NCBI GenBank assembly: GCA_021325455.1
Contig: JAJPHD010000013.1
Coordinates: forward strand, 1-64,000
DNA: 64,000 bases
Source: Actinomycetota bacterium
GTDB taxonomy: Bacteria; Actinomycetota; Acidimicrobiia; Acidimicrobiales; JAJPHD01
Reading direction: 5' to 3'
Below are positions 1 through 34,816 of this stretch, one piece after another; position 1 is the stretch's first letter; each line of letters begins with the position of its first letter. The notes below the pieces were generated by a model. That model was not told where the DNA came from. It did no database searches and saw only the letters and a program-made list of their open reading frames with translations. Both the position numbers and the translations under genes were made by a program.

Positions 1-2
1 CC

Positions 3-209
3 ACCCCGGCCACCGGGGTGGACAAGGGGGCGGTCATCTCCACCTTCGCCTCGGGCGGCAAGAGCCAGGCGGGCCAGCACGGGAAGGCGTCCTCCACCAC
101 CACGACCTCGGCTCCATCCCCTTCCACCACCGCCCCGGGGTCGAGCCCTCAGGCCAGCCACCCCAGCGCCAGCAGCCACCCCGGCGCCAGCAGCCACCCC
201 GGTCACTGA
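3..209 (+). CDS. C-terminal end of a protein truncated by the window edge; Ser/Thr/Pro/His-rich tail
   Basis: Open frame runs off the left edge; low-complexity C-terminus SHPSASSHPGASSHPGH. Confidence 0.4.
   Translation, partial: TPATGVDKGAVISTFASGGKSQAGQHGKASSTTTTSAPSPSTTAPGSSPQASHPSASSHPGASSHPGH
156..206 (+). repeat. About 2.8 tandem copies of an 18-bp unit (agccaccccRgcgccagc) coding for SHPxAS
   Basis: Read directly: copies at 156-173, 174-191, 192-206. Confidence 0.75.
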
Positions 210-313
210 GAGGCCCGGGGGCTTCGCCCTGAGGGCAGGGTCACCTGGACAGGCCCGAGCAGGGCCCTCGGCCCGGCGACCTCCGGGCTGGCTGACGGGC
301 AGGTGGCGGCCGG

Positions 314-763
314 CTACCGGTCGGCGGCCGGCTGGTGCCGGAGCGCCAGGGAGTTGATGCACCAGCGCTCGCCGGTCGGAGCGGGGCCGTCGTCGAAGAC
401 ATGGCCCAGATGGGACCCGCACCGCCGGCACCGCACCTCAGTGCGCACCATGCCGTGGCTGGTGTCGGGGACCAGCTCCACCCGTCCTGCCGCCGCTGGC
501 TGGGTGAAGCTGGGCCAGCCGCAGTGGGACTCGAACTGAGCCGAGGCGTCGAAGAGCTCCTGCCCGCACGCCGCGCACCGGTAAGTGCCGTCGGGCGCCA
601 CGTGCACGTACTCACCGCTCCAGGGCGGCTCGGTGCCCCCCTGGCGGAGGACCCGGAAGCGCTCCTCCCCCAGCACCTCCCGCCACTCCTGCTCGCTGCG
701 CTTGTCGACCTGGGGACTCTCGCTCTGCATGGCCCCCAGGGTAGAGACCCTGGTCAGCCCCAA
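314..763 (-). CDS. msrB: Peptide-methionine (R)-S-oxide reductase; start may be 730
   Basis: CAACGQELFDASAQFESHCGWPSF, CRRCGSHLGHVFDDGP, RWCINSLAL motifs. Confidence 0.95.
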   Translation of the reverse strand: MGLTRVSTLGAMQSESPQVDKRSEQEWREVLGEERFRVLRQGGTEPPWSGEYVHVAPDGTYRCAACGQELFDASAQFESHCGWPSFTQPAAAGRVELVPDTSHGMVRTEVRCRRCGSHLGHVFDDGPAPTGERWCINSLALRHQPAADR

Positions 764-821
764 CGCCCGGGGGACCTGCCCGGGGCACGCCCGGGCGGGC
801 CGCTCGGGCTCCCGGGGAACC

Positions 822-1802
822 TCACCTGTGCAGCAGGCGGGTGACCTCGGCGGGTACCGGCTGGTGGGCCTCCCGGTAGGCCCGGGCCATGGTGGAGGCG
901 GCCCGGGCCACCAGGGCCTGGGGCGGGCGATCCTTCAGGAACAAGCCGAACTGGGCCGCGGCGTCCACCGGGTCGTGCTCGTCCTGGAGGAGCATGTACC
1001 CCATGAACACATGGGCGTCGGGGTAGGAGGGGTCGATGGCGATGGCCTCGGCCACCATGTCGCGGCCCTTGTTCACGAGGGCGCGCTTGTGGTCCGCAAC
1101 CCCTGCCTTGCGCAGCAGCCAGCCCTGGTAGGCGAGGGCCTCGGGCTGGTCCGGGTTGGACTTGAGGACCTGGCTGAAGAGCTTGCTGGCCTGCACGTCC
1201 TTGCCCTGGCTGGCCAGCAGGCGGCCCTCGACCAGCTCGGCCGCCAGCTGCTTGGCCGGGGTGGAAGCCTGGACCGACCCGCTGACCTGCTGGGTGGGCA
1301 GGCGGGCGCTCAGGTAATGCCCGAGAAGCAGGCCCGCCGCCACCACGAAGGCGGCGATGGCGGCCAGACCCACCCAGGTGGACCGGTGCCTGCCCCCCCG
1401 GACGGGGACCTGACCGGCCGGGCCGCCCATGGAGGCAGCTCCGCCTGCCGGGGGGCCGCCGCCTCCCGGCGCCGGAGAAGCACCCCCGGCCCGGTCCTCA
1501 TCCCCGACGTCCCCCGGTGACGACGAGCTGCCGCCGCCCACTGCCCGCAGCTCGGCCAGGGCCCGGATGGCCGCCGCCGCCCGCGCCGTCTGCTCCTCGC
1601 GCAGGGCCTCGTAGTCGGCCTGCTCCAGCTCGCCGGCCCGGTGGTCGCGCTCCAGGGACCGCAGGGCGGCCAGCGCCGCGTCCCGCTCCTCCCGCAGGGC
1701 CAGCTCGTCCAGGGGCTGTCCTGTCTCCCGGGGGGCCAACCCCCCCCGCTCCCGAGGGGCCGCTTCCCGGGCCTCCGGCGAGACCCTTGCCTCTCCTCTC
1801 AC
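822..1802 (-). CDS. CcmI-like cytochrome c biogenesis protein (N-terminal CcmI-like segment, TM helix, TPR region)
   Basis: ERDAALAALRSLERDHRAGELEQADYEALREE then TM and TPR-like repeats; last gene of the ccm operon. Confidence 0.75.
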   Translation of the reverse strand: MRGEARVSPEAREAAPRERGGLAPRETGQPLDELALREERDAALAALRSLERDHRAGELEQADYEALREEQTARAAAAIRALAELRAVGGGSSSSPGDVGDEDRAGGASPAPGGGGPPAGGAASMGGPAGQVPVRGGRHRSTWVGLAAIAAFVVAAGLLLGHYLSARLPTQQVSGSVQASTPAKQLAAELVEGRLLASQGKDVQASKLFSQVLKSNPDQPEALAYQGWLLRKAGVADHKRALVNKGRDMVAEAIAIDPSYPDAHVFMGYMLLQDEHDPVDAAAQFGLFLKDRPPQALVARAASTMARAYREAHQPVPAEVTRLLHR

Positions 1803-2278
1803 CTGCGCAGCACCGCCTCCACCAGCTCCCGGTCCTCGTCGCTGACCACGGGACCCCCTGACCGGCCCCGTCGGCGCCGCCGCCCGAACACCCCCACCAG
1901 CACCACGGCTGCCGCCGCCACCAAGGCTCCCGGGAGGACCCAGACGAGGAAGCCCAACCCCGTGGCAGGGGGCCGCAGTATCACCCCGGCGCCGTAGCTG
2001 GACTCCACCGCCTTCTCGATGGCCGTGTCGCTCTTGCCTGCCCTCACCTCCTTGGCCACGAACTGCCTGATGGCCACGGCGGTGGAGGCATTGGACTCCG
2101 CCACCGACAGGTCGGCACAGCTGGGGCAGCCGATCAGGTGGTCCAGCTGGGAGATGCGCTGGGCGGTGGTGGGCGGCCGGCCACCCAGGCGCACGCCGCT
2201 CCCGATGACCAGCCCGAGGACCAGCAGGACGCCGAGGAGGGCCCAGCTCCAGCGGGCGACGATGCTCCTCATTGCCAT
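1799..2278 (-). CDS. ccmH: Cytochrome c-type biogenesis protein CcmH
   Basis: LIGCPSCADLSVAESNAS (CxxC) plus C-terminal TM; overlaps neighbours by a few nt. Confidence 0.85.
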   Translation of the reverse strand: MAMRSIVARWSWALLGVLLVLGLVIGSGVRLGGRPPTTAQRISQLDHLIGCPSCADLSVAESNASTAVAIRQFVAKEVRAGKSDTAIEKAVESSYGAGVILRPPATGLGFLVWVLPGALVAAAAVVLVGVFGRRRRRGRSGGPVVSDEDRELVEAVLRR

Positions 2279-2817
2279 CAGTACCCCCGGGCCCGGGCCA
2301 CGGCCAGCAGGCGGTCCAGCCCGCTCACCGTCACCGGGCCGTCGATCTCGGAGAGGATCCGCCCCTTAGGGCTGATGAGGAAGGACGTGGGCGGGCTGCG
2401 TACCCCGTAGCGGAAGGCGTAGTCCCCTTCGGGGTCGGCCAGCACCGGATAGCGCCCCCCGTGCTCCTCGACCCACTTGGCCGCCGGGCCCGGCTGGTCC
2501 TCCAGCACCACGCCGAGCACGGCCACCCCGCCGGACCGGCGGTGCTGGCGCCAGAAGGCTTCCAGCTGCGGCTCTTCCTGCTGGCAGGGGACGCACCAGT
2601 GGGCGAAGAAGTTCACCAGGACGAAGCTCCCCCTCATCCTGGCCAGGCTCACCCGGCCTCCCCCGGTGAGGGAGGGCCCGGCGAGGGCCGGGGCCGGCTT
2701 GTCGATGAGCGGGGTGCGGTCGGCCACCGTGGTCGCCGGGGGGGACACGGCGAAGACCACGATGAGGGCCACGACGACCACCCCCACGCCGGTAGCGATC
2801 CAGCGGATGCGGGTCAC
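2278..2817 (-). CDS. ccmG: TlpA/DsbE-type thioredoxin (CcmG)
   Basis: FFAHWCVPCQQEEPQL (WCxxC), N-terminal TM, operon position. Confidence 0.85.
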   Translation of the reverse strand: MTRIRWIATGVGVVVVALIVVFAVSPPATTVADRTPLIDKPAPALAGPSLTGGGRVSLARMRGSFVLVNFFAHWCVPCQQEEPQLEAFWRQHRRSGGVAVLGVVLEDQPGPAAKWVEEHGGRYPVLADPEGDYAFRYGVRSPPTSFLISPKGRILSEIDGPVTVSGLDRLLAVARARGY

Positions 2818-4880
2818 GCCCCGCCCTCCGCCGTCCTTGGGGCCTCCGCCATGGCGGAAACACCCGCCGGCGCTCCCCGGCGGCCGGGAACGGGCAACCC
2901 CGGCGCCAGGTCAGGAGAGGCGTCCCGGGCCCGCTCCTCCCGGCGTCGGCCGGGGGGCGCCTGCAAGCGGCGAGGGGCAGCTGCCAGCGCCGTCCCGAGG
3001 ACCACGATGGCGGCCCCGATCCACAGCCAGCTGACGAGGGGCTGGACGATCACACCGATGAGGACCGGCCCTCCCTTGTGCTGGGCCGGGCCGTCGAAGG
3101 TGAGGTACACGTCGGAGCGCCAGCCGGGAGAGACCGATGGCGACCCGATCCCCTGGGCGTCGGTCCCGAACTGGCTGATGCCGGGGCGCAGCACCCCCCG
3201 GCCCGACACGGCCACGTCGGCGACCAGCTCGCTGCGGGCCGGGGTGACCTTCGTGTGGGTGCCCTGGTAGGTGAGGGTGTGACCGAGCACCCGGGTGGGC
3301 CGGCCCCTGGACAGCTGGACCTGGGTCCGGTGGCCGAAGGAGAGGCTGGCGGCCAGGGCCACCCCGATCACCACCACCCCCAGATGGACCACCATCCCGC
3401 CGTTGGTCCGCCCCGTGAGGGCCCGCCACAGCCCCCGGCCGCTGGTGGCCTGGGCCCTTACGGAGTGGGCGAGCTGGCGCAGGGCCGTGGTGGCGGCAAA
3501 GGCGCCCAGGCCGAAGGCCAGCAACGGTGCCAGGCCCCTGATGCCGGCCAGGGCGCAGCCCAGGACGGTGAGCACCCCGGCCCAGGCAGGAAGCACCAGG
3601 CGGGACCCCAGGACGGCCGGCGAGGACCTCTTCCAGGACAGGACGGGCCCGATGGCCATGAAGAACAGCAATGCCAGCCCTATGGGGGTGGTCATGGTGT
3701 CGAAATAGGGTCGTCCCACCGTGAGCGACCGGTTGTCCAGGGCCTGCACGAACAGGGGGAAGACCGTGCCCAGCAGGACCACGAAGGCGAAGGCCGCGAA
3801 CAGCAGGTTGTTGACAAGGAAGCCGCCCTCCCGGGAGAGGGCGGAATCGACCCGGGCGGGAGCCCGCAACCGGTCCCCCCGCCACCCGATGAGCCCCACC
3901 GATGCCGCCACAGCCACCCCCAGGAAACCGATGAGAACGGGCCCCAGGTTCGAGTTGGAGAAGGCGTGCACGGATTGGAGCACACCCGAGCGGGTGAGGA
4001 AGGTGGCCAGGATGGTCAGGCAGAACGTGGCCATGACCAGGGACAGGTTCCACACCCGCAGCAAGCCCCTCCTCTCCTGGGCCACCACCGAGTGCAGGTA
4101 GGCGGTGGCCGTCAGCCAGGGAAGGAAGGCGGCGTTCTCGACCGGGTCCCACGCCCAGAACCCGCCCCAACCGAGGACCTGGTAGGACCACCACGCCCCG
4201 AGCACGATCCCCGCCGAGAGGAAGCCCCAGGCGAACAGGGTCCACCGCCTGGTCTCCACCAGCCATCCCTCCCCCAGGCGCCCGGTCACGAGCGCCCCCA
4301 CGGCGAAGGCGAAAGGCACCGTGAAGCCTACGAACCCGAGGTACAGCATGGGCGGGTGGATCACGACCAGGGGGTTGTTCTGCAGCAGCGGGTTGGGGCC
4401 GGGGCCGTCCACCGGCACGGGGCCCTTCACGGGGGCGAAGGGGTTGGCCGGGCCCACCATCAGCCCGAAGAAGAAGGCCGCCACGGCGTAGACGGTGAAG
4501 GTGGCCCAGCCCACCAGGGGATCTCCCGCCCGGCGCCGGAACTTCCAGCCCATGGCCGCCGCGTAGCCGGCCAGGATCAGGGCCCACAGCAGTATGGAGC
4601 CCTGGAGGGCCGACCACATGCCGGTGATGCTGAAGAGCAGTGGTGTCTCCCGGCTGTTGTTGGCCGCCACGTAGGCGAGGGAGAAGTCGTGGGTGATGAG
4701 GGCGTGCTCCATGGCCCCCGTCGCCACCAGCGCCCCCAGCAGGATCAGGCCGGCGTACAGCCCTCCCTGACGCAGGATGGAGGCCTTGTGACGGGCCAGC
4801 CCGACGCCCACCACCCCCATGCCGGCCAGGGCAGCGAGGAAGCCCAGGAGGACGGCGCTGCGCCCCAGAGCCTCGTTCAC
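2814..4880 (-). CDS. ccmF: Heme lyase subunit CcmF
   Basis: Multi-TM with WWD-type motif WGGFWAWDPVENAAFLPWL. Confidence 0.92.
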   Translation of the reverse strand: MNEALGRSAVLLGFLAALAGMGVVGVGLARHKASILRQGGLYAGLILLGALVATGAMEHALITHDFSLAYVAANNSRETPLLFSITGMWSALQGSILLWALILAGYAAAMGWKFRRRAGDPLVGWATFTVYAVAAFFFGLMVGPANPFAPVKGPVPVDGPGPNPLLQNNPLVVIHPPMLYLGFVGFTVPFAFAVGALVTGRLGEGWLVETRRWTLFAWGFLSAGIVLGAWWSYQVLGWGGFWAWDPVENAAFLPWLTATAYLHSVVAQERRGLLRVWNLSLVMATFCLTILATFLTRSGVLQSVHAFSNSNLGPVLIGFLGVAVAASVGLIGWRGDRLRAPARVDSALSREGGFLVNNLLFAAFAFVVLLGTVFPLFVQALDNRSLTVGRPYFDTMTTPIGLALLFFMAIGPVLSWKRSSPAVLGSRLVLPAWAGVLTVLGCALAGIRGLAPLLAFGLGAFAATTALRQLAHSVRAQATSGRGLWRALTGRTNGGMVVHLGVVVIGVALAASLSFGHRTQVQLSRGRPTRVLGHTLTYQGTHTKVTPARSELVADVAVSGRGVLRPGISQFGTDAQGIGSPSVSPGWRSDVYLTFDGPAQHKGGPVLIGVIVQPLVSWLWIGAAIVVLGTALAAAPRRLQAPPGRRREERARDASPDLAPGLPVPGRRGAPAGVSAMAEAPRTAEGGA

Positions 4881-27279: not shown

Positions 27280-29367
27280 TCAGCGTAAGGCGGCCGCCAC
27301 GGCCAGGACGGCGACCAGGGCCACCAGCATGTAGGCCATGTACGCCTCCAGGCGCCCGCACTGGAGCCTTCGCACCTGGGCCACCACCCACAGGAGGCCG
27401 AGGCGGGCGGGCCGGTAGAGGTAGGTCTCGACCGGCTCGACCACCCGGGCCTGGTGCTCCAGGTGGGCGTGCCCGGGCCCCGGCGCGGCCCCAGGACCGG
27501 CCCCGGGCGGCGGGGGTGAGAGAGAGGGGGAGGCCGACGACACCAGGGCCCGCCTCGACCCCAGCACGTTGCCGAGCACGTGGCGGGCGACGTTGGCGTA
27601 GCCGAAGGCGCTGTAGCTGTCCGGTCCGCTCACCCCCCCCGTGGCCGAGCGCCAGGCCGGGACCCGCCGCACCCGGAGGAACCGGCCCCGGGACAGTGCC
27701 ATGGTGGCAAGGGTCACGACCACGAACCCGACGGGCAGGGCCACGAAGGCCCATGAGGGGGAGAGGATCGAGAACCCCTTGAAGACGGGCTGGAGGACCC
27801 AGGGCGACTTGAGGCTCTGGTCCACCAGGCCGACGGGGACCACCGGGCCCAGCCCCCGGGCCACGTAGCGGATGACGTAGGGAGCCCCGGCGGCCAGGCC
27901 CAGGCACGAGGCCGCCAGGAGGACCAGGCCGGCCCGGCCCAGGAGCCCTCCTTCGCCGGCCACCGGGGGGCGGGATCGCCCCCGGGGGCCGTCCCCACCG
28001 GAGCTCCCGAGCACCCCCAGCCCGACCAGCCGGGCGAAGGTGAGGGCGGCCACGCCGGCGGTGAGGGCCACCAGAGCCCCGCCGGCAGCCATGGACAGCC
28101 GCACCGCCAGGGAGTGCACCCGGAACTGCTGCATGAGGGCCTCCAGGACGAACCACTCGGACACGAAGCCCATCGTGGGCGGCAGGCCGGCCAGGGTCAG
28201 AGCCGAGGCGGTGAACGCGGCCGAGCTCCAGGGGTGGGTCCGCCACAGGCCCGAGAGGTGCTCCAGGCGGGAGCTCCCCCAGTCGGCCTCCATGTTGCTG
28301 GCCGCGGCGAACAGGCCCGACTTGGCCACCCCATGGGCGATGGCCTGGAGGGTGGCCGCCAGCAACCCCACCGCCACCAGGCCCGCGTGGTGGGTCGACG
28401 CCCCCGCCAGGGCCACCCCGTAGCCGACCAGGATCACGCCCCCGTTCTCCACGCTGGAGTAGGCGATGACCCGGTCCAGGTCGGACTGGACGGCGGCAAA
28501 GACCATCCCCAGCAGGGCCGTCAGCCCGCCCATGACCAGCACCAGGCAGGCCAGCCACACCGGGGGAGGTCCGAGGAGGCCGAGGAACCGCCACAGGCCG
28601 TAGAAGCCGGCGTTGACGGCCACCCCGGCCAGGGCCGCCCTGACCGGGCCGGGCGCCACGGGGTAGCCAGGGGGCATCCAGACCTGGAAGGGGACCAGAC
28701 CCACCTTGGCCCCGAACCCGCCCACGATGAGGGCGTAGGCGGCGGCCTCCACCCCGCCAGCGGGCAGGGCGTGCCAGGAGCCGAAGGCCAGCGAGTGGGT
28801 CTGGCCGGCGAGGAGCAGGAAGCCGAGCAGCAGCAGGGCTCCTCCCCCCTTCCCGATCCCCAGAGCGGCCCAGCTGGCCACTGGCTGGCTGGCCCGGGCC
28901 CGGGTCACCGCCATCAGCACGTAGAAGGCGACGGTCATCGCCTCCCAGGCGAAGAGGAAGGTGAAGGCGTCGCCGGCCACGATGACCAGAGCCACCGACC
29001 CCAGCAGGAGGGCGTAGCCGGCGCCCGCCCCCCTCCCCTGGACACGGCGTTGGGGCCCCGCCCAGCCGGCGGCCACGGCCGAGACCAGCACCCCGAGACC
29101 CGAGGTCAAGGTGAGGAACAGCCCGGCCAGGTGGTCCAGGCGGAGCGAGGTGCGTCCCAGGCCGAGAAGGTTCCCGAGGTCCACCGACTCCGCCGGGCCC
29201 ACCACCGAGAGGACCCCGGCGGCCAGGAGGGCGCAGCTCCCGGCCAGGGCGGCCAGGTAGGGAAGGGGCCTGACCCAGCGCCGCGCCGTCCCCCAGACGT
29301 GGTCGATGGCCGCCCCCAGGGCCAGCACGGCCAGGCCCACGACGAGGAGGGCTTCGCGGGGCGTCAC
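27280..29367 (-). CDS. HyfB/NuoL-like antiporter-type membrane subunit
   Basis: DAFTFLFAWEAMTVAFYVLM; SDLDRVIAYSSVENGGVILVGYG; start GTG 29367. Confidence 0.88.
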   Translation of the reverse strand: MTPREALLVVGLAVLALGAAIDHVWGTARRWVRPLPYLAALAGSCALLAAGVLSVVGPAESVDLGNLLGLGRTSLRLDHLAGLFLTLTSGLGVLVSAVAAGWAGPQRRVQGRGAGAGYALLLGSVALVIVAGDAFTFLFAWEAMTVAFYVLMAVTRARASQPVASWAALGIGKGGGALLLLGFLLLAGQTHSLAFGSWHALPAGGVEAAAYALIVGGFGAKVGLVPFQVWMPPGYPVAPGPVRAALAGVAVNAGFYGLWRFLGLLGPPPVWLACLVLVMGGLTALLGMVFAAVQSDLDRVIAYSSVENGGVILVGYGVALAGASTHHAGLVAVGLLAATLQAIAHGVAKSGLFAAASNMEADWGSSRLEHLSGLWRTHPWSSAAFTASALTLAGLPPTMGFVSEWFVLEALMQQFRVHSLAVRLSMAAGGALVALTAGVAALTFARLVGLGVLGSSGGDGPRGRSRPPVAGEGGLLGRAGLVLLAASCLGLAAGAPYVIRYVARGLGPVVPVGLVDQSLKSPWVLQPVFKGFSILSPSWAFVALPVGFVVVTLATMALSRGRFLRVRRVPAWRSATGGVSGPDSYSAFGYANVARHVLGNVLGSRRALVSSASPSLSPPPPGAGPGAAPGPGHAHLEHQARVVEPVETYLYRPARLGLLWVVAQVRRLQCGRLEAYMAYMLVALVAVLAVAAALR

Positions 29368-30209
29368 GCCCCGCCTCCCGAGGGCAGCAGGCCGACGGCG
29401 AGCAGGATGCCGTGCAGCAGGCTGAACGGGCTGGGCGGCGAGCCCGGCACCCAAACGTCCACGGGCACCAGGTCCCCCACTCCTCCCCTGGTGGCGTACG
29501 TGGGGTGCACCAGCCCGCCGCTCACGGCGTCGGTCCCGGCCGCCACCACCACCTTGGGATCGGGCATGGCCTCCCACGTCCGGCGCAGCGGCCCCGCCAT
29601 GCCCGCCGCCCCGGCCCCCGTCACGAGCAGCAGGTCGGCGTGGCGGGGGGTGGCGGTGAAGAAGATGCCCAGGCGCTGGACGTCGTACACCGGGTTGGTG
29701 AGGGCGGCCACCTCCCATTCCTCGGAGCCGTCGGAGCCGGCATCCACGTGGCGCACGTGGATGGAGCGCCGCAGGGACCTGACCCGGCGGCCCAGCTCGG
29801 AGCGGACCTTCCCCAGCGCCTCCTCGTCGTCCTCCCCCGGAGGGACCACCAGGGCCTGCCGGGAGACGCTGGCCGTCTCGTGGTCGGGCCCGAACCGGAA
29901 CAGCTCGGGGTGGCGGGAGGTGCAGCGTCCGCACAGGATGCAGCGGCCCCGATCCAGGCGGAGCCGGCCTCCTTCCTCGCTGATGGCTCCGGTCGGGCAC
30001 ACCTCCGCCACCCCCTGGGGGGGGCTGGCCCCCTCCGCGACCGACACCGCACCCATCCATCCCGGTCCGTAGCCATCGGGGCGGCGGGGGTAGGCGGTGG
30101 TGACGATCCCTTCCCGCAGGCCGCGCAGCACCCACATGTGGGCCTGGCCCGGGATGTGGCGGAACGGCTCCAGCGACCGCCGCACCCTGTCCGGGACCCC
30201 CCTACCCAT
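29364..30209 (-). CDS. NuoB/HycG-like small subunit with N-terminal ferredoxin-like domain; proximal-cluster cysteines absent
   Basis: CPTGAISEEGG...CILCGRC; NPVYDVQRLGIFFTATPRHADLLLVTG; MPDPKVVVAAGTDAVSGG; VPGSPPSP. Confidence 0.88.
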   Translation of the reverse strand: MGRGVPDRVRRSLEPFRHIPGQAHMWVLRGLREGIVTTAYPRRPDGYGPGWMGAVSVAEGASPPQGVAEVCPTGAISEEGGRLRLDRGRCILCGRCTSRHPELFRFGPDHETASVSRQALVVPPGEDDEEALGKVRSELGRRVRSLRRSIHVRHVDAGSDGSEEWEVAALTNPVYDVQRLGIFFTATPRHADLLLVTGAGAAGMAGPLRRTWEAMPDPKVVVAAGTDAVSGGLVHPTYATRGGVGDLVPVDVWVPGSPPSPFSLLHGILLAVGLLPSGGGA

Positions 30210-31708
30210 CACCCGGCCACCCCGGCCACCGACAGCCCGAAGCTGGCTTCTATGAACACGAAGTCCGTGTAGATGTCCCCCCGGAAGGCCTGGGCGAAGA
30301 GGGCCAGGTTGTGGAAGGCCGGGCACCTCGGCCTGGCCGCCCGGAGGCGGCCGTCCTCCACCTCCACGAGGTAGAGCAGCTCGCCCTGGGGGGCCTCGGC
30401 CCAGCCCAGGGCGGTGCCGTCAGGAGGGTCGAACTGCGCCCGCCAGGGCCCGTCCCCGGCCCCCGCCAGCCCCTCCAGGGCCTGGCGGGCCAGGGAGAAG
30501 GAGCGAGCCACCTCCGCCACCCGCACCTCCTGGCGGGCCAGGGCGTCCCCCCTCTCCCGGGGCTCGACGGCCTGGGCGCCCAGGCGGGGATAGGCGCCGT
30601 AGGGGCGGGCCACCCTGAGGTCCTCGGCCAGCCCGGATGCCCGCCCTATGGGCCCGACGGCGCCGTGGGCCCCGGCCACCTCTGGGGGCAGCACACCGGT
30701 CCCCCGCAGCCGGTCCAGGAAGGAAGGGGTCTCCATCAAGAGCCTGATGTCGGCCGTGGCCCCCTTGTCGATCCGGGCCAGCTCGGCCAGGGCCTGGGCC
30801 GCCCCCAGGGAGGGCGGGCCCGAGACCCCCCCCGGCACGACCACCCCCCGGCCGAAGCGGTGCCCGCACAGGCGGGCCTGCAGGCGCAGCACCCGTTCCT
30901 TGTGGAGGCTCAGGCGGGCGTAGGCCACGGCCTGGCCCGCCCCCTCGGTGTGGCGGACCATGGAGTCCAGGTGGTTGGCCACCCTCTCCAGCTCGGCGTG
31001 CAGCACCCGGGAGAGGCCGGCCCGGGGCGGGACCTCGACCCCGGCCAGGGCCTCCAGCGCCTGGCAGTAGGCGCTGGCCTGGGCCACCGAGGTGGTCCCC
31101 TCCACCCTCTCCGCCAGGAGGACCCCGTCCCCGACAGACAGGCCACAGAAGCGCCGGGAGAGGCCCCGGTGCTTGTGGTACACGCGCGTGCGCAGGTGCG
31201 GTATCTCCTCCCCCGGCGTCTCGACCAGGTACTGGATGGCCTCGAAGACCCCGGAGCGCACCGGGCCGTAGGGGATGGTGAACAGCCCCTCGCCGCTCAC
31301 ATGGCCGGGCAGGGGCTCCTCGCTGGGGTCGAGGCAGCCGACGTCGGCCGCCGTCCCCGGGCGGGGCCGGGGCGTCCCCGGGGCCAGGGGCAGCACCAGG
31401 GGGTCGAGGCGGGGGTGCCCGAGGGGCCGGACCCCGTAGAGGTCGTGCAGCTCCCGCTCGTACCAGGTGGCCCCGGGCGTGGTAGGGGTGAGGGCCTGGT
31501 AGGCACCCACCTCGGGAGCCAGGACCTCCTCCTCCAGCCCATAGCGGCCCGGCCAGGCCAGGACGGCCCGGAGGCAGAGGGACCCGTCCGGCCGTCCGGT
31601 GGGCAGCAGGGCGGCGAAGCGGGCGCCGGCCCGGACGGCACCCGCCACCCGGGAGGCCAGCTCCTCGCCCACCAGCCCACCCCCCACCGGGGCAGCGGCC
31701 TCCCTCAT
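30209..31708 (-). CDS. HycE/NuoCD-like large subunit lacking [NiFe]-ligating cysteines
   Basis: YERELHDLYGVRPLGHPRLDPL (NuoC-like); VSGEGLFTIPYGPVRSGVFEAIQY; GVLLAERVEGTTSVAQASAYCQALE (NuoD/HycE-like). Confidence 0.9.
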   Translation of the reverse strand: MREAAAPVGGGLVGEELASRVAGAVRAGARFAALLPTGRPDGSLCLRAVLAWPGRYGLEEEVLAPEVGAYQALTPTTPGATWYERELHDLYGVRPLGHPRLDPLVLPLAPGTPRPRPGTAADVGCLDPSEEPLPGHVSGEGLFTIPYGPVRSGVFEAIQYLVETPGEEIPHLRTRVYHKHRGLSRRFCGLSVGDGVLLAERVEGTTSVAQASAYCQALEALAGVEVPPRAGLSRVLHAELERVANHLDSMVRHTEGAGQAVAYARLSLHKERVLRLQARLCGHRFGRGVVVPGGVSGPPSLGAAQALAELARIDKGATADIRLLMETPSFLDRLRGTGVLPPEVAGAHGAVGPIGRASGLAEDLRVARPYGAYPRLGAQAVEPRERGDALARQEVRVAEVARSFSLARQALEGLAGAGDGPWRAQFDPPDGTALGWAEAPQGELLYLVEVEDGRLRAARPRCPAFHNLALFAQAFRGDIYTDFVFIEASFGLSVAGVAG

Positions 31709-33168
31709 GGCCCCACTCCCAGCTCGCTCGCCGCCCGGGAAAGGACGTGGCTCAGCGCCGAGGGGGGATGGACCCCGAGGATGGCCAGAGCCACCAGGCC
31801 GGCTGCCATGGCGGCCACCATCCAGGCGCTCGTCTCCCCCCTGGCAACGGTGGCGCCGGCGGTGGAGCCACCGGCGGGCGTCGGCGAGGCCATGGTCCTG
31901 GTGGCCCACCAGCTGAGCCCCAGGAAGGCCAGGACCACCAGGCCCACCAGCACCGCCACCACGCCGTCGCTCGGGACCGAGAGCCCGCCGGCCACGATCA
32001 GGAACTCCGAGCGGAAGATGCCGAACGGCGGTGCCGCCGACAGGGCCAGCACGGCCAGCACCAGCATGGGCCCCGTCCAGGGGAGCACGCCGATCCCCCC
32101 CCGAATAAGGCGCAGGTCCTTGGTCCCCAGCTTGGCGAGCACGGACCCGGCGCCGAAGAAGGCCGTCCCCTTGGCGGCGCCGTGGGCCAGGACCTGGAGG
32201 AGGACCCCGACCACGGCCAGAGGGGCGGCGAAGCTCATGCCTATGGCCATGATCCCCATGTGCTCGATGCTGGAGTAGGCAAGGAGGCGCTTGAGGTCCC
32301 GCTGGCTCACCACGTACAAGGCGGCCAGGGCGAGGGAGGTGATGCCGAACCCGAGGAGCACCTCTCGGGGGAAGGCGTAGCCCACGGCGCGCCCGGTTAT
32401 CTGGAAGTAGCGCAGGATGGCGTAGAACGAGACGGCCAGCAATGCCCCCGAGAGCAGAGCGGAGACCGGGGTGGGGGCCTCGGAGTGGGCGTCGGGCAGC
32501 CAGGTGTGCACCGGCACCAGGCCCATCTTGGTCCCGAAGCCCAGCACGGCCAGGAGGTAGGCGAGCCGGACGAGACCGGGGGGCAGCCGATGGGCGACGG
32601 AAAGGAGAGGCCCTATGGCCATGTGGTAGGCGGGGCCGAGGGCGCTGGCCCCTGCGGCGTACATGGCCACCGTGCCGAACAGAGCTATCCCCAGCCCCAT
32701 GGAGGCGATGATCAGGTACTTCCAGGACGCCTCCGCCGCCCCGTCGGTGTCGTCCAGGGCCACGAGCAGGGCCGACACCACGCTGGCGATCTCGAGGGCG
32801 GCCCAGATCTCCACCAGGCTGTTGACGACGGGCGTCACGGCCATGGCCCAGCAGAACAGGTTCAGCCCTGCGTAGAGGCGCCGGGAGTAGCGGGGGTCGT
32901 GCCGCCGGCCCACGTAACCCATGGCGAACACCGCCGTCAGGGCGTAGAGGAAGGCCGTGGTGAGCAGGAACACCAACGAGAGGTCATCGGCCCGCAACCA
33001 ACCACCGAGCGCCATCTGGCTTCTCCCCCCGGCTCTTCCCACCAGGGCGAGGGAGAGGCCGAAGGTGGCTGCCCCGGCTACGACCGTGGCCCCCTGGGCC
33101 AGGCGGGTAGGGCCCCACCACGCCACCACGGCGGCCACGAGGGGGACGACCAGTATCGCCAGGAGCAT
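31705..33168 (-). CDS. HyfF/NuoN-like antiporter-type membrane subunit
   Basis: KMGLVPVHTWLPDAHSEAPTPVSALLSG; LKRLLAYSSIEHMGIMAIG. Confidence 0.9.
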   Translation of the reverse strand: MLLAILVVPLVAAVVAWWGPTRLAQGATVVAGAATFGLSLALVGRAGGRSQMALGGWLRADDLSLVFLLTTAFLYALTAVFAMGYVGRRHDPRYSRRLYAGLNLFCWAMAVTPVVNSLVEIWAALEIASVVSALLVALDDTDGAAEASWKYLIIASMGLGIALFGTVAMYAAGASALGPAYHMAIGPLLSVAHRLPPGLVRLAYLLAVLGFGTKMGLVPVHTWLPDAHSEAPTPVSALLSGALLAVSFYAILRYFQITGRAVGYAFPREVLLGFGITSLALAALYVVSQRDLKRLLAYSSIEHMGIMAIGMSFAAPLAVVGVLLQVLAHGAAKGTAFFGAGSVLAKLGTKDLRLIRGGIGVLPWTGPMLVLAVLALSAAPPFGIFRSEFLIVAGGLSVPSDGVVAVLVGLVVLAFLGLSWWATRTMASPTPAGGSTAGATVARGETSAWMVAAMAAGLVALAILGVHPPSALSHVLSRAASELGVGP

Positions 33169-33170
33169 CC

Positions 33171-33860
33171 CTAGCCCCTCAGCCTGTCCAGCACTTCGGT
33201 GGAGAGGGTCCCCGTGCGGCCGTGATGGACCCGCACCAGCACGCCGAAGAAGACCACGGCCACCAGCAGGTCGAAGAAGAACGTGACCTCGGCCAGCAGA
33301 GGCAGCCGGGAGGCCAGCACCAGGCTGGCGACGGACACCCCGTTCTCCAGGGCGAAGAAGCCGATGGCCTGGGACACCACGTCAGCGCGCAGGATGACGA
33401 GGAGGAAGGCCACGAGCACGGCCGCCATGGCCAGGCCGAGGGCCGCCACCGGAAGGGTCGAGGTCACGGGAACCGCCTCCAGGATGAAGAGCCCGAAGGC
33501 CGCCACGGCCAAGGCGATGAGGGTCATGCTGGCCACCTTGAGCCGTTCGCTGCCCGCCACCTCCGTCTCCACCCCGGCCAGGAGGCGAAGGACGACGGCA
33601 GGGATCACCACGACCTTGATGAGGAACGAGATGCCCGCCACGGCGTAGGCCTCGGGGACATGGCGGAGAGCGGCCAGCAGCACGGCCAGGCCCACCACGC
33701 AAAGGGACTGGAACGCATAGAGCCGTACCTGGGTGCGGGCCAGGGCGGAGCGGAGCATGGCGAACTCGGCCAGCACCACGAGCAGGGCGATGGCATCGGC
33801 CACCCCCGAGAAGGCCGGGGGGGCAGCCAGGGTGGAGACCGCCAGGAGGGCTGGACCCAT
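33171..33860 (-). CDS. HyfE/NuoK-like membrane subunit
   Basis: AYAVAGISFLIKVVVIPAVVLRLL; SQAIGFFALENGVSVASLV; start ATG 33860. Confidence 0.85.
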   Translation of the reverse strand: MGPALLAVSTLAAPPAFSGVADAIALLVVLAEFAMLRSALARTQVRLYAFQSLCVVGLAVLLAALRHVPEAYAVAGISFLIKVVVIPAVVLRLLAGVETEVAGSERLKVASMTLIALAVAAFGLFILEAVPVTSTLPVAALGLAMAAVLVAFLLVILRADVVSQAIGFFALENGVSVASLVLASRLPLLAEVTFFFDLLVAVVFFGVLVRVHHGRTGTLSTEVLDRLRG

Positions 33861-34816
33861 CAGGCGTGCCCCACGTAGAGGATGAGGATGGCCAGGACGG
33901 AGAGCAGGAAGGCGGCGGCCATGAACTCGGTGATCTTGAACAGGCGCAGCTTGGAGAACGAGTTGTCGATGAGGGCGAAGAGGAAGCCCACACCCAGGGC
34001 CTTGCCGAAGAAGATGGGGATGGCGAGCAGCACCGACGAGGCGTCCCGGGTGCTGGACAAGCCCCAGGGGGCGGCGAAGACGTTGATGAGCAGCACGTAG
34101 AGGATCACCTGCTTCATGGCCGATCCCCACTTGAGGAGGGCCATGGCCGCTCCGGAGTGCTCCAGGGTCCGGGCCTCGTCGATCATGCCGAACTCGAGGG
34201 TGCTGGAGTGGGTCTCCACGGGGATGCGGGCCGTGTCGGACAGCACGGCCAGGAAGAAGGCGAAGGCGGCCAGGATGTGGGAGGGGCGCACCGCCTGGCC
34301 CAGCGAGGCCCGGGCCGTGGCCGCCTCGGCGTAGGGGAGGTCCGTCGTGGTGATGATCGCCACCACGAAGGTCACGAAGAGGATGGTGGGCTCGATCAGG
34401 GCGGCGAAGGTCATGGCCCGGCTGCTGCCCAGCTGGGCGTAGGGGCCGCCGGTCTCGGCCGCCGCCACCGAGATCGAGAAGGCGGCCAGGGCGAGGAAGA
34501 AGGCACCACCCAGGATGTCCCCCATGTAGCCGAGCGGGAGGCCGAAGGTGGTGAGCTCGGGGATGAGGAGGGGGACGATCAGGTAGCAGGTGAAGGCCAC
34601 CACCGGGGCGGCCAGGAACACCCAGCTGGCCTGCTCGGGGACCAGGGTCTCCTTGCTGAAGAGCTTGGCCAGGTCATAGTACGGCTGCAGGATGCGGGGC
34701 CCACGCCGGCCCTGCAGACGCGCCTCCATGTGGGAGATGGCTCCGGAGAGGAAGGGGGCGAGGCCCACCACCATCAGGTCCTGGACCAGCTGGATCGTGT
34801 AGACAGACAGCTCCAC
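33860..34816 (-). CDS. HycD/HyfC/NuoH-like membrane subunit
   Basis: EARLQGRRGPRILQPYYDLAKLFSKE; DTARIPVETHSSTLEFGMIDEARTLEHSG. Confidence 0.93.
   Translation of the reverse strand: MELSVYTIQLVQDLMVVGLAPFLSGAISHMEARLQGRRGPRILQPYYDLAKLFSKETLVPEQASWVFLAAPVVAFTCYLIVPLLIPELTTFGLPLGYMGDILGGAFFLALAAFSISVAAAETGGPYAQLGSSRAMTFAALIEPTILFVTFVVAIITTTDLPYAEAATARASLGQAVRPSHILAAFAFFLAVLSDTARIPVETHSSTLEFGMIDEARTLEHSGAAMALLKWGSAMKQVILYVLLINVFAAPWGLSSTRDASSVLLAIPIFFGKALGVGFLFALIDNSFSKLRLFKITEFMAAAFLLSVLAILILYVGHA

Follow-up and report, generated by a model that had tools for sequence, protein, structure and literature searches.

Ehr complexes without the ligands of the NiFe site have already been described (PMC4378227, PMC10284858, PMC10432482, PMC7894505, PMC6349859). 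Those of Geobacter, Sulfobacillus, Nitrospira and others are built from the same HyfB/NuoL-, NuoH-, HyfE-, HyfF-, NuoCD- and NuoB-like set of subunits as the complex analysed here, and in both the NiFe cysteines are absent (PMC4378227, PMC10284858, PMC7894505). The difference lies in the N2 site, as the other Ehr lineages examined retain the N2 cysteines, whereas the clade of the present locus has acidic residues in their place and a single-cluster ferredoxin fused to NuoB. The absence of NiFe ligands in Ehr was known before; what appears to be new here is the clade-wide loss of the N2 ligands and their replacement by conserved acids. No description of a loss of N2 ligands in Ehr, or of acids in their place, was found in the open literature, although an earlier mention is possible.

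Several better-known systems can be compared with this complex. In formate hydrogenlyase of E. coli (HycB-G, 7z0s), HycG is the top solved homologue of the small subunit and HycE is among the best for the large subunit, but HycG has N2-type cysteines, HycE has the NiFe cysteines and the ferredoxin proteins are separate. MbhJ and MbhL of the membrane-bound hydrogenase Mbh (6cfw, Pyrococcus) resemble the two subunits here in fold and sequence, but Mbh has an active NiFe site and an adjoining cluster, and this complex has neither. Complex I (NuoB/Nqo6, NuoCD/Nqo4) has the folds, the arginines flanking N2 and the antiporter-like subunits with their key charges in common with it; it differs in that the present complex has no N module, no N2 and no quinone ligands, and its host has a separate, normal NuoB. 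The Mrp cation/H+ antiporters, which exchange ions by NuoL/M-like subunits without redox cofactors, are a possible functional analogue, but they lack NuoB, NuoCD and NuoH, all of which are present here; the operon is not counted among them.

The window (the whole stretch of 64,000 nucleotides that was analysed, positions 1 to 64,000 of contig JAJPHD010000013.1 of an Actinomycetota bacterium, assembly GCA_021325455.1) contains a tight six-gene operon in which several starts and stops overlap and the NuoB-like gene is the fifth. The genes are ordered NuoH, HyfE, HyfF, NuoCD, NuoB-ferredoxin and HyfB, as follows:

33860 to 34816, minus strand: NuoH/HycD-like subunit, channel acids kept
33171 to 33860, minus strand: HyfE-like membrane subunit (PRK11492, 70 bits), start approximate
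31705 to 33168, minus strand: HyfF-like antiporter subunit, E126, K214, K333 and E388 kept
30209 to 31708, minus strand: NuoC/NuoD (HycE)-like large subunit, NiFe cysteines replaced, start overlapping the stop of the upstream gene by 4 bases
29364 to 30209, minus strand: NuoB/HycG-like small subunit (P0001), 281 amino acids, stop included in the coordinates, with an N-terminal single-cluster ferredoxin domain
27280 to 29367, minus strand: HyfB-like antiporter subunit, GTG start overlapping the NuoB stop, E146, K225, K353 and E408 kept

Every contig of sufficient length shows this order, in about 80 loci that represent several actinobacterial families. Judged by its sequence, with six group 4/complex I-like subunits in one operon and no NiFe motifs, the complex is classed as Ehr. 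It does not pass as a group 4 [NiFe] hydrogenase, the four NiFe cysteines and the proximal [4Fe-4S] ligands both being missing, nor as a complex I (NDH-1), for which the N2 ligands in NuoB and the quinone ligands His38/Tyr87 are both missing.

The NuoB-like reading frame begins with an ATG at 30209, which overlaps the stop of the large-subunit gene (TGATG), and ends with a stop at 29364. The true start of the protein could be M25, the position at which most homologues begin; residues 4-43 have low confidence in the AlphaFold model. The protein belongs to the Oxidored_q6 family (Pfam), which it matches over residues 164-269 with 68.4 bits against a curated cut-off of 27, and Pfam models of single-cluster 4Fe-4S domains match residues 84-120. 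The best solved chains by sequence are HycG (7z0s_G, E 1.9e-33) and MbhJ (6cfw_J), and Foldseek retrieves the same two chains with the AlphaFold model (mean pLDDT 78.6). The residues that concern the iron-sulfur sites are the following:

29922 to 29999, minus strand: four cysteines of the remaining [4Fe-4S] site, C71 (29997-29999), C90 (29940-29942), C93 (29931-29933) and C96 (29922-29924)
29721 to 29732, minus strand: former N2 ligands 1 and 2, D160 (29730-29732; D in 83 of 83 sequences) and E163 (29721-29723; E or D in 81 of 83, V in 2)
29529 to 29531, minus strand: former N2 ligand 3, D227 (D or E in 83 of 83)
29439 to 29441, minus strand: former N2 ligand 4, S257 (S in 76, A in 5, N in 1, D in 1)

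The initial annotation, made from the sequence of the window alone, had proposed that the N2 ligands of this protein are replaced and that a single ferredoxin-type cluster is left, and both points hold in alignments with canonical homologues. GSDGSEE stands for GSCNGCE, GTDAVSGG for GTCAVS and GSPP for GCPP, and three of the four ligand positions carry acids (D160, E163 and D227) instead of random residues. The only cysteines are C71, in CPTGAI, and C90, C93 and C96, in CILCGRC; all belong to the ferredoxin part, so that there is no alternative nearby cysteine to fill the N2 positions, and the set of four is conserved in all 85 homologues that have the domain. This combination, the last cysteine of the first motif with the first three of the second, is the one that ligates a single cluster in two-cluster ferredoxins and NuoI, named N6b in complex I. 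A sequencing or assembly error is practically excluded because over 80 loci, which come from many genomes, show the same residues, and a misalignment of the motifs is just as implausible, as invariant residues on either side and canonical homologues fix the alignment. L001, the host's own normal NuoB at another place in its genome, retains the four cysteines (CC, GVCAS and GCPP); recovering these motifs shows that the method is able to detect an intact site.

Relatives were found in genomes of the same order and in 182 stretches from named organisms, of which 80 loci, all actinobacterial, were read, and further searches covered 397 genomes of the phylum with the large subunit as query and 397 genomes of the order with NuoB as query. 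One of the two patterns of the first scan held GSDG[SA][ED]EW, which biased it towards the N2-less form; the bias is milder in the order-wide search, with an N2-less, cluster-free NuoB as query, and the large-subunit query is free of it, which makes the phylum search blind to the NuoB motif. In the phylum search N2 was missing only in three loci, the ones with a large subunit more than 50% identical to the query, and 29 of the 30 loci read in the order-wide search were N2-less; the later searches give the same picture as the first scan. The N2-less actinobacterial sequences in the tree form one clade (SH-aLRT 100), with hosts in Acidimicrobiaceae, Streptomyces, Amycolatopsis, Leifsonia, Actinocatenispora and a Propionibacteriaceae MAG; Mycobacterium branderi, on a plasmid (L153), is N2-less too, with N at ligand position 1 and A at position 4. 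The N2-less state is fixed in this strongly supported actinobacterial clade. The substitutions are not general among Ehr homologues: among those examined they are found only in the actinobacterial clade and in one distant lineage.

The large subunit has changed as well. It has AERVEGTTS and FIEASFGLS where RxCGxC and DPCxxC are expected, the NiFe ligand motifs being absent, and the position of the first NiFe cysteine is E in 83/83 sequences. Together with D160, E163, D227 and S257 in the small subunit, these replacements agree with the earlier claim that the NiFe site and N2 are both gone. The quinone ligands His38 and Tyr87 (Thermus thermophilus Nqo4 numbering) are aligned with F and G. The arginines that flank N2 are kept, in 84/84 and 83/84 sequences; they correspond to the arginine of the HRG motif (Yarrowia R121) and Nqo4 R84, taken by alignment as Yarrowia R141. 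In Yarrowia complex I, replacement of R121 causes the loss of N2, leaving the complex otherwise intact and abolishing quinone reduction (PMC8042128). The change seen here is the opposite one, in which the arginines are kept and the cluster gives way to carboxylates. On homology, the simplest inference is that these acids supply the negative charge which the cluster would otherwise provide, and preserve the interface between the subunits. The polar residues E164, H270, K271, D321, R336, H467 and D479 of the large subunit are specific to the clade, which suggests that the polar network has been remodelled. The large subunit of the window (30209-31708) has Q at the histidine of the L1 motif (SVAQ instead of SVAH), where 80 of 83 relatives have His.

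In the membrane arm, the charged residues are preserved almost without change. Within the N2-less clade, HyfF keeps K214 (83/83), K333 (84/84) and E388 (84/84), and HyfB keeps E146 (82/83), K225 (83/83) and K353 (84/84); overall, the relay glutamates and lysines of both subunits are present in 77-84 of 80-84 loci, mostly with no exception, and E201, E208, E214 and D284 of NuoH in 69 of 69. This near-invariance indicates that the ion-translocation machinery is under selection, but conserved membrane residues by themselves cannot separate a pump from an antiporter.

Related complexes show an order in the loss of redox centres. NiFe and N2 cysteines are both present in the formate hydrogenlyase types (L147, L148, L152), and six further loci (L122, L139, L143-L146) retain the cysteines of N2 along with CxxC pairs of the large subunit. 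The NiFe cysteines are absent and N2 is kept both in loci with two ferredoxin clusters (L038, L130, L131, L135) and in loci with one (L132, L136); L187 and L188 are small subunits of N2-intact Ehr, possibly of the same type as Rv0082. Loss of the NiFe cysteines is therefore more widespread than the N2-less clade, and it probably came before the loss of N2. The tree needs two origins of the N2-less state, the second one on plasmid pMESIL01 of Allomeiothermus silvanus (Deinococcota; L154:8019-8888), which encodes a NuoB that lacks the N2 ligands, has a ferredoxin domain for one cluster and shows the letters T, D, E and S at the ligand positions. This looks like an independent second loss, with its exact place uncertain, as the branch is long (1.5) and the fork open. 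Two further variants of the site are also seen: in L133 and L134 an Asn takes the place of the fourth N2 cysteine (GNPP) and the other three are present, which might give a [3Fe-4S] or an Asn-ligated cluster, and L126-L129, which form the sister group to the N2-less clade, have shifted N2 cysteines (CGACE, AACGPACGGG) together with GSPP, a possible altered cluster site.

One genus (g40) has gone further. In three genomes of this genus (G039, G468 and G527) the ferredoxin domain is deleted, which leaves a NuoB with no Fe-S ligand set:

L039:9954-10550 (G039), with L158 and L159 (G468 and G527): cluster-free NuoB-like subunit, N2 ligand positions D/V/D/D or S

Identity to G039 is 90% for G468 and 63% for G527, so that the cluster-free state is conserved. 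In the L039 operon, the only one of the three examined in full, each of the 15 pump residues that were tested is preserved, and there is no sign of a ferredoxin gene to replace the lost domain; the only CxxCxxC match within it overlaps the frame of HyfF and looks spurious. The last cluster would be dispensable in this genus.

The reading favoured here, with a probability of roughly one half, is that selection maintains ion translocation in this complex of the Ehr type, which would be devoid of N2-mediated quinone or H2 chemistry, in which acids replace the cluster and the remaining cluster serves as an entry point or sensor. By sequence, the complex lacks the NiFe site, N2 and ferredoxin cluster I, a single [4Fe-4S] site is left and the charge relay of the membrane arm is intact. 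The membrane arm would move H+ or another cation, by translocation or antiport, and the peripheral arm would gate it with little or no redox activity of its own. From homology, the three carboxylates are predicted to stand in for the anionic cluster opposite the two conserved arginines; they may hold the NuoB-NuoCD interface together and offer a protonatable site beside the former Q/NiFe cavity. The remaining N6b-type cluster would not be a link in a long chain but a local electron entry, or a redox, iron or oxygen sensor that gates the pump. Without a redox reaction the complex would need another source of energy, which might be an ion gradient (antiport). A bolder version, which is proposed only tentatively, is that these proteins are a branch of the complex I superfamily free of an electron chain, with NuoB/NuoCD as a non-redox gating or proton-relay module, a carboxylate triad instead of N2 and, in one genus, no Fe-S site in the operon at all.

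The conservation of the cluster wherever its domain is present suggests real electron transfer in most members, which counts against a non-redox reading, and a soluble donor or acceptor encoded elsewhere could take part. It could be argued from this that the pump is driven by a rerouted redox reaction, in which the remaining [4Fe-4S] cluster passes electrons to a small substrate or mobile carrier lodged in the space of N2 or of the NiFe site. Ferredoxin-type domains usually dock electron carriers, the ligands are conserved in 85/85 sequences and the large subunit has acquired new conserved polar residues, also at the old site. However, the distance from an N6b-like cluster to the Q/NiFe-like cavity without N2 should, on the complex I geometry that we assume, exceed about 20 Å, genus g40 retains the complex without that cluster, and no linked partner enzyme, such as a recurrent oxidoreductase gene of the formate dehydrogenase kind, was found among the neighbours of 80 loci; such rerouting is therefore considered rather unlikely. 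The initial annotation had left it at a redox chain "gone or rerouted", which is supported as far as it goes; "gone" fits better, direct transfer from the remaining cluster to some acceptor being the less likely alternative.

It is less probable still that D/E/D binds a mononuclear metal (e.g. Fe, Mn or Zn) that replaces N2 as a new catalytic or electron-transfer site. An acid is almost invariant at three of the four ligand positions and the replacement recurs with other letters in A. silvanus, but a strict metal site would hardly allow N at position 1, as in M. branderi, or V at position 2, as in g40, and the arginines expected to face the site are better suited to charge pairing than to metal binding. 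That the operon is a degenerating remnant of a hydrogenase-like complex, drifting after loss of function, is very improbable: it would fit that NiFe, ferredoxin cluster I and N2 have disappeared step by step, followed in one genus by the entire ferredoxin domain, but gene order and membrane charges are kept in about 80 loci of several actinobacterial families and the replacement residues are near-invariant.

It has long been asked how complex I couples electron transfer through N2 and quinone to proton pumping at a distance. A conserved relative that has the pump charges, and lacks N2, NiFe and quinone ligands, would allow ion transport by the membrane arm to be studied apart from the redox reaction, and an N2-less family is a natural test of whether complex I-like pumps need an electron chain. 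The labels "hydrogenase", "ferredoxin" and "NADH-quinone oxidoreductase subunit" attached to these actinobacterial genes are not reliable as statements of function.

Around the operon, the flanks in the window encode an arylsulfotransferase-like protein, an ALO/FAD oxidase, MFS transporters and luciferase-like monooxygenases, and show no common pattern. Several genomes have a second Ehr operon (L034, positions 1-4000; L035, L057, L082 and L089), in which N2 is intact where NuoB was read (L034, L035, L057 and L082); L034, L057, L082 and L089 have it together with the N2-less operon on a single contig, which means that one cell contains the two forms. In 26 of 80 loci, L075 being an example, HyfB is followed directly by a gene for a universal stress protein, a hint of a role in stress. 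Genes for DUF190 proteins, enolase and histidine phosphatase also recur near the operon, including on the M. branderi plasmid.
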